From contig JAEUPJ010000028.1 of NCBI GenBank assembly GCA_016790285.1, positions 1 to 64,000 on the forward strand: DNA of 64,000 nucleotides, written 5' to 3'. The first letter of the stretch is position 1, and the number at the start of each line of letters is the position of its first letter. Source of the DNA: Roseateles sp. Lineage in GTDB: Bacteria > Pseudomonadota > Gammaproteobacteria > Burkholderiales > Burkholderiaceae_C. The position numbers and the translations under genes are program-made. The notes below the pieces were generated by a model. That model was not told where the DNA came from. It saw only the letters and a list, made by a program, of their open reading frames with translations, and ran no database searches. Positions 60,781 through 64,000 of the stretch are shown here, piece after piece.

Positions 60781-61575
60781 TCAGCCGAAGCGAAAGCTCG
60801 ATGCCGTCACGCCCCCGAGGTACTCGGTCTCGTGATAGTTGCAGAGGGCGTCGTCCTGCTCGGCGGCCCCGGCGGCCACCATCAGCGGCAGCAGGTGTTC
60901 CTCCCGGGCGTGCGCCTGCCGCGCGGCGGGCGCCTGGGCCCAGGCCTTGAGCCGTTCGGCGCGGCCCGCGGGTGAGGGCAGGGCACCTTGCAGCCAGGCA
61001 TCGAAGGCGATGGACGGCGCGCGGCCCGCACCGCTGAACATCAGCGACAGGTTGTGGAAGCTGAAGCCGCTGCCCAGGATGAGCACGCCCTCGTCGCGCA
61101 GCGGGGCCAGGGCGCGGCCCAGGGCCAGGTGCTCTGCCGGGTCCAGCCCGCGGCGCAGGGAAAGCTGCACGACGGGGATCTGGGCGTCGGGGTACATCGG
61201 GGCCAGGGTGCAGAAGGCGCCGTGGTCGAAGCCGCGGGTCGCGTTGCGCGCCGCGGGTAGCCCGGCCGCCTCAATGAGCGCGACCACACGCTCGGCCAGC
61301 ACCGGGTCGCCCGGGGCCGGGTAGACCACCTTGTAGGTGTGGGGCGGGAAGCCCCCGTAGTCGTAGAGCATGCCCGGGCGGGGCGCCGTCATCACGGTGA
61401 ACGCCGGCTCCTCCCAGTGGGCCGAGATCATCACGATGGCCTTCGGGGCCTCGGGCAGCGTGGCCGGCAGCGCCTTGAGCGAGGCTTCGAGCTGTGCATG
61501 TCCCCGGCGGAAGTCGCCATCCATCCAGGGCCAGGGGCCGCCGCCGTGCGAGAGGAAGAAGGTGGGCTGTCTCAT
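60781..61575 (-). CDS. LigB-type extradiol dioxygenase (YgiD/DODA-like)
   Basis: 264-aa class III extradiol ring-cleavage dioxygenase. His in FFLSHGGGPWPWMDG and SAHWEEP, and the FDHGAFCTLAPMYPD block, fit the Fe/Zn site. YgiD and plant DODA cleave L-DOPA; the natural substrate here is unknown. It is convergent with the PEP-CTERM gene with adjacent stops. Confidence 0.9.
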   Translation of the reverse strand: MRQPTFFLSHGGGPWPWMDGDFRRGHAQLEASLKALPATLPEAPKAIVMISAHWEEPAFTVMTAPRPGMLYDYGGFPPHTYKVVYPAPGDPVLAERVVALIEAAGLPAARNATRGFDHGAFCTLAPMYPDAQIPVVQLSLRRGLDPAEHLALGRALAPLRDEGVLILGSGFSFHNLSLMFSGAGRAPSIAFDAWLQGALPSPAGRAERLKAWAQAPAARQAHAREEHLLPLMVAAGAAEQDDALCNYHETEYLGGVTASSFRFG

Positions 61576-61675: not shown

Positions 61676-62983
61676 ATGCAGATCCTGCCCCCCGATACCG
61701 ACGACGCCCAGCGCCCCGACCGCGTGGAGGACTACTTCCGCGACGGCGCGGCGCCGAACGAGGCGCTGCTGTGGTGGCAGCTGGAGCGCCAGGACGCCCT
61801 GCAGGCCGCCTTGCGGGCGCTGTTCCAGGGCCCGGCGGGCCTGACGCGGCTGCGGCTGTGGGTGTTCCTGGAGCTGATGGCGCTGCGCGAGTCGCGCCTG
61901 ACCCGAGAGGCGCTGAACCAGGCCTTCCATGTGCTGCGCGACGAAGTGCTGGACAGCGTCCTCAAGCGCCTGCGCGAGGCCGAGCTGCTGGCCTGGGACG
62001 CCACCGCCCAGACCTATGCCGTCACGCCCCTGGCCCAGCAGGTCGTGGGCCTGTTGCAGCCCCTCACGCAGGAACAGGCCCCCGACGGCGACCTCGCCTC
62101 GCTGCTGGCCGGCGTGGCCGGCGCCCACCAGCTCGGCACCCTGCAGCCCGCGCAGCTGCAGCACCTGCTGGCCCAGCTCTCGCGGCTGTACGACGAGTTC
62201 GCCGACGCCATCGCCAGCGGCAGCGAGTTCGCGCTGCGCCGCGCCCGCACGCGCTTCGAGAAGGCGCTGACGCTGGTGGACCGCGCGGGCGAGGCCCTGG
62301 GCGCCATCATTGCCCAGGCCGAGTCAGCCGGCGACGCCCGCTTGGAGCGCCTGGCGCGCGAGCTGGGTTTGGCCCAGGCGCGGCTGCTGGCCATGGCCAG
62401 CCAGTTCAACCGCGCGCTGCAGCAGGCCGACCGCCAGCGCGTGACGCTCGGCTCCACCGGCATCACCACCACCGACGTGCGCCGCTGGCTGCAGAGCCAG
62501 GGCGACCTGGCCGGGCTGCTGGGCGGCGGCTGGCTGCGCCCCGTGCACCCGGTGCTGGTGGCCCAGCGCGACCTGGTCGACACGACCGAGGCCGAGTTCG
62601 AGCGCGACCGCCCCGTCGTGGCTGATGCCGCCGCGCTGCCGCAAGGCCAGGCCGCGCCCCCGGGCGAGCTGGCCGTGCTGCAGCTGCCGCCCGAGATGGG
62701 CCAGATGCAGGCCCTGCTCAACGCCTGGACGGCGGCCGGCACCACCGAGCCGCAAGACCTCGCGCCGGCCGTGCTCGGCGGCAGCTACGCCCGCGCCGCC
62801 TACCGCGCCCAGCTGTTGCCGCTGCTGGGCGACCCGCAGGCCCGCCACCTCAAGGGCGCCACGGGCGACATGGCGCGCCAGCCTTGGAGCGTGCGCTGGT
62901 CGGCCGAGCAAGGCGAAGTCGACGACGAGTTCATCAAGTGGATGAGCCGCGGCGTCCTTACCCCTGAATCACCTACCCCATGA
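61676..62983 (+). CDS. Kleisin-like condensin subunit (MksF/JetA-like)
   Basis: 435 aa. Helix-rich protein with an N-terminal winged-helix-like region (TRLRLWVFLELMALRESRLTR cut short here by length), long Ala/Leu/Arg helices, and a C-terminal segment ending DDEFIKWMSRGVL. Alone it shows no enzyme motif; the call rests on gene order (435-aa helical protein, 226-aa kite, P-loop ATPase) typical of MksFEB or JetABC. The ATG lacks a ribosome binding site. The stop overlaps the next start (ATGA). Confidence 0.7.
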   Translation: MQILPPDTDDAQRPDRVEDYFRDGAAPNEALLWWQLERQDALQAALRALFQGPAGLTRLRLWVFLELMALRESRLTREALNQAFHVLRDEVLDSVLKRLREAELLAWDATAQTYAVTPLAQQVVGLLQPLTQEQAPDGDLASLLAGVAGAHQLGTLQPAQLQHLLAQLSRLYDEFADAIASGSEFALRRARTRFEKALTLVDRAGEALGAIIAQAESAGDARLERLARELGLAQARLLAMASQFNRALQQADRQRVTLGSTGITTTDVRRWLQSQGDLAGLLGGGWLRPVHPVLVAQRDLVDTTEAEFERDRPVVADAAALPQGQAAPPGELAVLQLPPEMGQMQALLNAWTAAGTTEPQDLAPAVLGGSYARAAYRAQLLPLLGDPQARHLKGATGDMARQPWSVRWSAEQGEVDDEFIKWMSRGVLTPESPTP

Positions 62984-63660
62984 GCCCACTCGACGACGCC
63001 CAGCAACTCGCCGCGCAACTGCTGGCCCGGCGCTGGCTGCCGCGCAGCCACCCCCTCGTGAAGCGCGCGCTGATCGACACCGAGCTCTGGAACGCCCTCG
63101 GCGCGCGGCTGGCCGGCGTCGGCCTGCAGCTGGTGGACAACGTGCATGCCGACCACATCGCCGTGGCCCTGCTGCGCCCGGCCGAGAGCGCCGTGTTCGG
63201 CGAGACGGGGCTGGCGGCCAACAACAACCTGGACCTGCCGCGGGACGGCGTGGCGCTGCTGGTGGTGCTGTGGAGCCTCATCGTGCTGCCCAAGCGCCAG
63301 CGCCAGGTGGCGCGCAGCGACGCCATCCATGCCGGCCAGGGCGAGATGTTCGCCACCGACAAGCCCATGCCGCAGGCCGCCAGCGTGTCGCCGCTGATCA
63401 GCTACCGCAGCCTGCTGGCCGACTTCGGCGACCAGCTCGGCAAGAAGCTGCGCCTGGACACCAACCTCAAGCTGCTGGAGCGCCACGGCTTCATCACGCG
63501 CCGGGGCGAGGACATCGCCGAGGGCCCGCTGCTGGACCTGCTGATCGACTACGACCTGCTCGCGCCCCGCATCCTGGACGGTGCCCTGGGCGACGTGCTC
63601 GCCCGCGCCGGCCACCCGCTGCCGCGGCCGCAGGAAGAACAACAAGACATTGACGACTGA
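62980..63660 (+). CDS. Kite-like condensin subunit (MksE/JetB-like)
   Basis: 226 aa with tandem winged-helix character, resembling MksE or DUF4194 (JetB) proteins: LWNALGARLAGVGLQLVDN, then YRSLLADFGDQLGKKLRLDT and a small acidic C-terminus. It overlaps the kleisin-like gene by 4 nt and ends 2 nt before the ATPase gene. In MukBEF/MksBEF/Wadjet complexes the kite dimer holds the kleisin. Confidence 0.72.
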   Translation: MSPLDDAQQLAAQLLARRWLPRSHPLVKRALIDTELWNALGARLAGVGLQLVDNVHADHIAVALLRPAESAVFGETGLAANNNLDLPRDGVALLVVLWSLIVLPKRQRQVARSDAIHAGQGEMFATDKPMPQAASVSPLISYRSLLADFGDQLGKKLRLDTNLKLLERHGFITRRGEDIAEGPLLDLLIDYDLLAPRILDGALGDVLARAGHPLPRPQEEQQDIDD

Positions 63661-63662
63661 AG

Positions 63663-64000
63663 ATGTTCCACCTGCAATCGCTTGAACTGCTGCACTGGGA
63701 CTACTGCCAGCGCGTGACGCTGCCGCTGGACGGCGCCATCATCACCATCGCCGGCCCCAACGGCTCGGGCAAGACCACGCTGCTGGACGCCATGCGCACG
63801 CTGCTGGGCCTGGAGTGCTCGGGCGGCCGCACCTACAAGACCTACGCCCGCCACGCCAACGCCGAGACGGCCTGGCTGCGCGCCCTCGTGGACAACCGCC
63901 CGCGCTCGCGCCAGAACAGCAGCCGGCCCTTTGCGTCATCGCTGCTGTACGCCGACCAGGTCACGCTGGCCTGCCGCATCGAGCGCCACGGCGGCGACTG
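63663..64000 (+). CDS. SMC-like ATPase, 5' part (MksB/JetC-like)
   Basis: First 112 codons of a P-loop ATPase running off the window. The N-terminus FHLQSLELLHWDYCQRVTL is the usual SMC/SbcC-type beta strand pair, and Walker A is GPNGSGKTTLLDAMRTLLG. The segment LECSGGRTYKTYARH resembles the region after Walker A in MksB and JetC. Coiled coils and the signature motif should lie beyond 64000. Confidence 0.8.
   Translation, partial: MFHLQSLELLHWDYCQRVTLPLDGAIITIAGPNGSGKTTLLDAMRTLLGLECSGGRTYKTYARHANAETAWLRALVDNRPRSRQNSSRPFASSLLYADQVTLACRIERHGGD

Follow-up and report, generated by a model that had tools for sequence, protein, structure and literature searches.

Does the operon that crosses the right-hand edge of the window, the 64,000-nucleotide stretch of DNA analysed here, belong to a plasmid-defence system of the Wadjet type, to the MksBEF chromosome condensins, or to a derivative of either? 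Three coupled genes encode an SMC–kleisin–kite complex, and the initial annotation left the choice between MksBEF and Wadjet to a TOPRIM nuclease gene (JetD/MksG) that was expected to the right of position 64000. The choice was well put and the deciding gene has answered it: a thioesterase gene adjoins the SMC gene instead, searches of the genome for JetD are negative, and the locus is not a complete Wadjet system, yet it belongs to a family in which a JetD-type gene is found in 25 of 101 loci. The best explanation, to which we give a probability of roughly 60%, is a divergent Wadjet core (JetABC without JetD) that would have turned into a nuclease-free complex and, by analogy, probably has an accessory role on the chromosome.

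The window comprises positions 1-64000 of contig C19 (114,053 bases), which is part of a 5.88 Mb genome assembled in 107 contigs and 95.11% complete. The SMC gene, still open at 64000, ends at position 66479 of this contig and encodes a full protein of 938 aa, within the 900-1,100 aa that had been anticipated. The kite gene overlaps the kleisin gene by 4 bases, and the length of the kleisin-like protein is counted from the ATG at 61676, its frame being already open from an ATG at 61370. The ORF list and the full ATPase read on the contig confirm the three coupled reading frames (Table 1). A gene for a 4HBT-type thioesterase lies directly downstream, its start overlapping the end of the SMC gene by 8 bases, and is followed by a sigma-70-type factor and by an ORF that we take to resemble AhpD. 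On the upstream side, genes of the same cluster as the neighbouring LigB-type dioxygenase occur in the neighbourhood of 20 of the 101 loci.

Table 1. Positions of the operon and of features named in the text (window coordinates, unless a locus or genome handle is given)
Feature	Position	Strand	Basis or remark
LigB-type dioxygenase gene, just upstream of operon	60781-61575	-	opposite strand to operon
Kleisin-like subunit (JetA/MksF/MukF-like), 435 aa	61676..62983	+	ORF, 40-row alignment, AlphaFold model
Kite-like subunit (JetB/MksE-like), 226 aa	62980..63660	+	ORF, structure model
SMC ATPase start, Walker A GPNGSGKTT at residues 31-39	63663..64000	+	ORF, SMC_N
SMC and JetD-type gene	L090:1-7451
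Gap between kite and SMC genes	L102:2142-7985
GNAT-type acetyltransferase gene between kite and SMC	L140:8390-8926
Separate JetD pieces directly after SMC	L089, about 92 to 470 bases after SMC stop
Separate JetD pieces directly after SMC	G010:C2:330665-331125
obg-group loci	L136, L139-L142, L146, L150-L155		operon downstream of obg; other genes between in some
Half-length SMC on Variovorax sp. RA8 plasmid, with neighbours	L208:940-6561

Outside the window's genome, 79 of 80 loci have relatives of the kleisin and kite genes upstream of the SMC gene, and since these loci share the order, the kleisin–kite–SMC arrangement is not due to chance. In the exception, L090, neither of the two genes was found in the 3.4 kb of contig ahead of SMC; at L083, the start of the contig cuts the kleisin gene. 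In a few loci the operon itself is interrupted. The kite and SMC genes of L102 are about 5.8 kb apart, with a transposase-like gene in between that we liken to the ISL3 type, and those of L140 are separated by an acetyltransferase gene. Called genes inside the operon are also present in L139, L154 and L155.

The ATPase had been proposed to be of the SMC type, and its full sequence agrees with this. It passes the SMC_N model (53.4 bits, cut-off 40) as well as AAA_29 and AAA_21, and remains below the cut-off of the MukB N-terminal Pfam model (19.0 versus 23 bits) and far under that of SMC_prok_B (60.9 versus 567.35 bits). In addition to Walker A, the protein contains the signature EASGGQQ (residues 834-840), a Walker B motif FVFIDEP from residue 861 and the stretch LTTPITHN (892-899), all four of which are invariant in an alignment of 41 SMC rows. 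Two arms, recognised by composition only, contain 5.4% and 5.2% Pro+Gly compared to 11-15% in the other parts of the protein, and the middle stretch 415-587 matches the Smc chain 4rsj (E 5.7e-5), presumably a hinge structure. The predicted architecture is that of an SMC ATPase with Walker A, signature and Walker B motifs and two long arms around a hinge. JetC is the best PADLOC model (E 1.5e-24), with its best stretch over arms and hinge, and further matching models include mad3 (1.1e-19) and LmuB (5e-14); the JetC similarity lies partly over the arms, where coiled coils can match by composition.

For the two smaller subunits, the assignments made earlier are supported by predicted structures. 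The kleisin AlphaFold model was built from 40 rows (mean pLDDT 79.9), and its first four PDB matches are 7nz2_C1 from MukBEF-MatP (E 1.8e-4), 8q72_E from JetABCD (1.2e-3), 3rpu from MukE-MukF (5.5e-3) and 9qe1 from Wadjet-II (0.10), with low Foldseek TM-scores of 0.12-0.17 and with the kleisin identity of the matched chains judged from their length. The best of these, to the MukBEF and JetABCD chains, point to a kleisin fold in the model, though at a TM-score of only 0.15-0.17. The kite model is of low confidence (mean pLDDT only 65.5), and its three top-ranking PDB matches come from JetABC structures (8as8_C and 8dk1_E/F; E 5.2e-6 to 3.8e-5, TM 0.33-0.36); these chains are taken as JetB by their length and suggest a tandem winged helix (kite) fold. 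Neither of the two outcomes that the initial annotation had named as refuting was obtained: the ATPase has its signature motif and two arms low in Pro and Gly, and the kleisin model finds MukBEF and JetABCD chains first.

The suspected divergence from well-known types proved to be real. The window kleisin scores over the cut-off of no Pfam family and has no match at all to DUF3375, and the window kite reaches 15.7 bits with DUF4194 against a cut-off of 32.7. Among the profiles that the initial annotation had named as checks, DUF3375 failed and MukB fell below its cut-off, but DUF4194 does match 31 of 41 kites of the family at E up to 0.1, with a best value of 2.4e-6. PADLOC models of JetA and JetB gave no match to the window kleisin or kite at E up to 10, and a PADLOC scan of 40 kleisins at E 0.01 returned no JetA model, its matches being to LeoA in eight, JetC in one and HTH_IX in one. 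Profiles of the kleisin and kite alignments, searched against PDB sequences, were uninformative.

Compared to known systems, the operon is closest in layout to Wadjet (JetABCD, also named MksBEFG or EptABCD), which has the same order of kleisin, kite, SMC and TOPRIM nuclease. The operon's SMC can be aligned over its full length to the SMCs from 13 loci of the DUF3375 type with a probability of 99.5% (hhalign), although it is shorter, with 938 aa versus 1107-1223 aa at uncurated starts, and both the kite and the kleisin model match chains of JetABC entries, whereas the proteins themselves lack a PADLOC JetA or JetB match. In the same comparison the kleisin, kite and JetD remained under 2.5% probability (kleisin 0.4%), with a similar result in a narrower run; this negative is weak, because the sets are small, the starts uncurated and the subunits assigned by position, and because JetD was missed despite its model matches. 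A JetD-sized ORF is present in 9 of the 13 loci by a crude rule. Wadjet type I is defined by a JetA with DUF3375 and a JetB with DUF4194, which the window proteins do not show at the Pfam cut-offs. For types II and III, no JetA or JetB model matches the window kleisin or kite, nor does any JetA model match the 40 kleisins; the type III subunits are named in PADLOC (PMC12645576). A JetD encoded together with the complex, which Wadjet requires, is missing at the window locus but found in other family members.

MukBEF resembles the complex in that the best PDB match of the kleisin model is a chain of a MukBEF entry, but the operon SMC scores below the MukB N-terminal cut-off, and a separate Smc frame and ScpA are kept in the genome. 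An SMC ATPase, a kleisin and a kite are also combined in Smc-ScpAB, yet the window's genome has its own Smc-like open frame (1293 aa) besides ScpA. A replacement of Smc-ScpAB by the operon was rejected: ScpA is found in all 105 near-complete family genomes (115 of all 120), and the separate Smc frame is long.

Clustering of the called genes in relatives revealed a further gene on the strand of SMC, coding for about 390 aa and placed immediately behind it. PADLOC JetD models match six of six scanned members, with a best E per protein of 2.5e-7 to 3.4e-16, and two of the six pass the DUF2399 cut-off. Residue E260 and the motif D309-x-D311-P-A-G, which we regard as TOPRIM motifs, are invariant in 21 aligned members, and by its sequence the fourth gene of the relatives is a predicted JetD-type TOPRIM gene. 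When the DNA downstream of SMC (about 8 kb at most) was scanned in six frames with the JetD profile, two of the 25 JetD genes proved to be cut by contig ends; JetD is in pieces in one locus (L089) and absent in 73, and two loci (L036 and L063) have too little DNA after SMC to be judged. At the window locus, neither JetD nor fragments of it were found in the 5.5 kb after SMC, with the contig read to 72000, and three profile searches did not find JetD in the 95% complete assembly. JetD_C was negative in this genome, as was DUF2399, which counts little as no control genome matched it. With JetD found neither beside the operon nor in the genome, the locus is not a complete Wadjet, and the idea of a nuclease just past the window was rejected.

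Absence of JetD is common in the wider samples. Among the 21 genomes with SMC in the family sample, an intact adjoining JetD is present in three (G004, G024 and G062) and pieces in one (G010), and the remaining 17, the window's included, gave no JetD match among the best first-look candidates, to which the genome searches are confined (15 of 78 in this sample). Assembly gaps are not the cause in G007, since this genome is a single complete contig. Weaker JetD matches were obtained in G012 and G049, which have no full-length SMC. Among the 38 genomes with the kleisin in the order sample, JetD is at the locus in six (one cut by a contig end) and a remnant of 49 positions was found in G295, and G191 and G292 have a JetD match but no kleisin match. 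The separate pieces in L089 and G010 fit a nuclease gene that is decaying. That another effector takes the place of JetD behind SMC was considered and rejected, as the genes that follow fall in different clusters in different clades; the thioesterase was identified by a scan, and those elsewhere read to us as a transcription regulator, a transporter and a diguanylate cyclase.

A scan of genome contigs for the SMC family confirmed 108 places; 80 of them were retained, and 20 more distant loci were added by choice rather than at random, with the three genes present in all of them. The closest SMC relatives are from two metagenome-assembled genomes labelled Methylotenera sp. and Burkholderiales (97% identity), followed by Roseateles puraquae (96%) and several Pelomonas (92-95%). 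A full-length SMC is present in 21 of the 120 genomes of the window's family, with five more matches that are weak or partial. With the kleisin profile, 38 of 250 genomes sampled from the order are positive, the window's genome among them, and 6 of 398 from the phylum, none of them outside the class. A limited search of the open-access literature, with few subscription papers, yielded no description of this divergent Wadjet-like family or of repeated JetD loss, and a search by genus name gave nothing relevant among the matches listed.

The history of JetD was followed on a quick SMC tree of 64 rows with a midpoint root and some long branches, from which same-state near-duplicates, L036 and L063 were left out. 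JetD presence takes at least 14 changes on this tree, 13 of which are forced by the starred branches, and a single origin on the midpoint-rooted tree needs 17 losses, also after collapsing branches under 80. Shuffled labels give 16.7 changes on average, and because 32 of 500 shuffles are as low as observed, JetD presence is barely clustered, so that losses and regains may be mixed. Four JetD-bearing rows form the sister clade of the window row (L009), and both halves of the tree contain rows with JetD. The distances between JetDs follow those between the SMCs (Mantel r 0.91 for 21 of the 25 JetDs, with 0 of 2000 permutations as high; 0.95 once the three most distant JetDs are removed), and JetD has therefore travelled with the operon.

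The DNA around the gene points the same way. In 11 of 14 aligned pairs of loci with and without JetD, the same DNA lies on both sides of the gap, which in some of these pairs is larger or filled with other DNA. Counted from the SMC stop, the flank resumes at +1170 in L047 versus -6 in the JetD-less L103, at 1174 in L057, from Roseateles saccharophilus DSM 654, versus -2 in the window contig, at 1226 in L048 versus 25 in L051, at 1344 in L108 versus 68 in L083, and at 1221 in L101 versus 27 in L106. The pairs L107/L092 and L137/L138 have no downstream match, and that of L090/L089 lies only inside JetD. In the window's lineage, the JetD gene is missing between flanks that are common to its JetD-bearing relatives. 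As the JetD and SMC distances agree and 11 of the 14 pairs share both flanks, JetD is probably ancestral and was repeatedly deleted; we infer the direction from these data, as changes on a midpoint-rooted tree cannot alone separate gain from loss.

The genes that remain are under constraint. In pairs of 86-98.5% amino-acid identity, taken from the window protein and the genome-contig loci with odd-length pairs, saturated pairs and distant loci left out, the median dN/dS without JetD is 0.112 for SMC (209 pairs), 0.116 for the kleisin (80) and 0.123 for the kite (179), compared to 0.158 (28), 0.154 (14) and 0.233 (14) with JetD. That relaxed selection is not seen in JetD-less complexes is the only conclusion drawn from this comparison, since the pairs lack independence and those without JetD are slightly more diverged. 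Low dN/dS and conserved motifs together show that the JetD-less complex is kept by purifying selection. Columns fully conserved in JetD-bearing rows but below 60% in the others number zero in the kleisin, zero in the kite and two in SMC (11 versus 29 or 30 rows); as no kleisin or kite column separates the two states, no change of job is apparent in the sequences of the JetD-less complex. The JetD-less rows include tree groups of 12 and 15. One JetD-less group consists of 12 of the 20 distant loci, and has obg and a polyprenyl synthetase gene upstream in 12 of 12 and genes of the ribosomal L21 and L27 clusters in 9 of 12 each. In our judgement, such a fixed housekeeping setting is unusual for a defence island.

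In the mechanism that we favour, the ancestor very probably carried a JetD-type TOPRIM nuclease as its fourth gene, which would have been lost in the window's lineage. JetABC would form a ring, hydrolyse ATP and extrude DNA loops like other SMC complexes, and without JetD, circles that are reeled in could not be cut. Preservation of an intact motor without the cutting gene suggests another job for the cell; since no cutting would take place, the selected effect would lie in DNA folding or segregation, and the complex most likely acts as an accessory chromosome organiser alongside the normal Smc-ScpAB, a role that has been reported for Pseudomonas aeruginosa MksBEF. The latter is described as living beside SMC (PMC7485682), and has been proposed to come from Wadjet by loss of JetD, with MukBEF as another possible descendant (PMC10586767). 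The idea for MksBEF is already in print, and the present family shows the JetD-loss step many times, with closely related pairs told apart by the nuclease gene (such as L048/L051 and L108/L083) and with broken intermediates, so that an idea on deep evolution becomes a bench comparison of the same DNA motor with and without its nuclease. More tentatively, and at somewhat less than even odds, JetD would be an optional accessory throughout this family, JetABC having a selected chromosome function of its own that works without JetD. Lineages would have passed from a cutting, anti-plasmid state to a non-cutting, housekeeping one through deletion of JetD, on a dozen occasions or more. If this is true, defence and chromosome organisation are alternative states of a single machine instead of separate families. 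In Cupriavidus necator H16, deletion of a putative type III Wadjet left transformation efficiency and plasmid stability unchanged under the conditions tested (PMC12645576), and a Wadjet-like operon therefore need not show a plasmid effect.

The same observations could be read differently. The complex may still act against plasmids without cutting, with JetABC wrapping or compacting small circles and lowering their expression or inheritance, or handing them to an unrelated nuclease. Complete relatives do look like Wadjet, and JetABC columns hardly differ between loci with and without JetD, but no one gene cluster replaces JetD after SMC and no JetD-type protein was found in the window's genome; we consider this reading unlikely. 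It is still less probable that the locus is simply a member of the published P. aeruginosa MksBEF family, to the point of being barely credible. Both are three-subunit, nuclease-free relatives of Wadjet, compared by description only, but the kleisin here matches neither DUF3375 nor a JetA model, its profile probability against the 13 DUF3375 kleisins is very low (a weak test, as the kite and JetD pairs were missed too), and the present family holds JetD-bearing and JetD-less members, some of them very close pairs, side by side.

Turning the order of events around, a three-gene complex might be ancestral and JetD added several times, and the minimum of 14 changes for a barely clustered trait would leave the direction unfixed. 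The JetDs are, however, one alignable family in one position, their distances, which are only compared, follow those of SMC, JetD-bearing rows stand in both halves of the tree, and JetD fragments or a remnant are found where the gene would be expected, all of which makes repeated gain improbable. Decay of the operon as a whole, with the nuclease lost and the three genes drifting towards disappearance, is slightly more improbable again. Most genomes of the family sample are without the system, JetD is in pieces in L089 and G010, the half-length SMC of a Variovorax plasmid adjoins an IS1071 transposase gene, and a transposase-like gene sits in the L102 operon; against this, dN/dS is low in JetD-less pairs, the ATPase motifs are invariant in a mostly JetD-less alignment, and JetD-less groups of 12 and 15 rows persist in the tree. 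Loss of JetD from a Wadjet ancestor, followed by retention of the core, remains the preferred account.

A phage- or plasmid-borne system was rejected as well. At E 1e-5 the kleisin matches none of 72,556 plasmid records and none of 50,697 phage records, and viral contigs yielded neither SMC nor JetD in pattern-based scans. SMC has three partial matches in plasmids, of which one is remote and two are half-length, the latter being the only close copies and coming from two Variovorax records. On the plasmid of Variovorax sp. RA8, the half-length SMC gene is preceded by an IS1071-family transposase gene and followed by a gene for a hypothetical protein of about 393 aa, which is the size of JetD, and by xseA/xseB.
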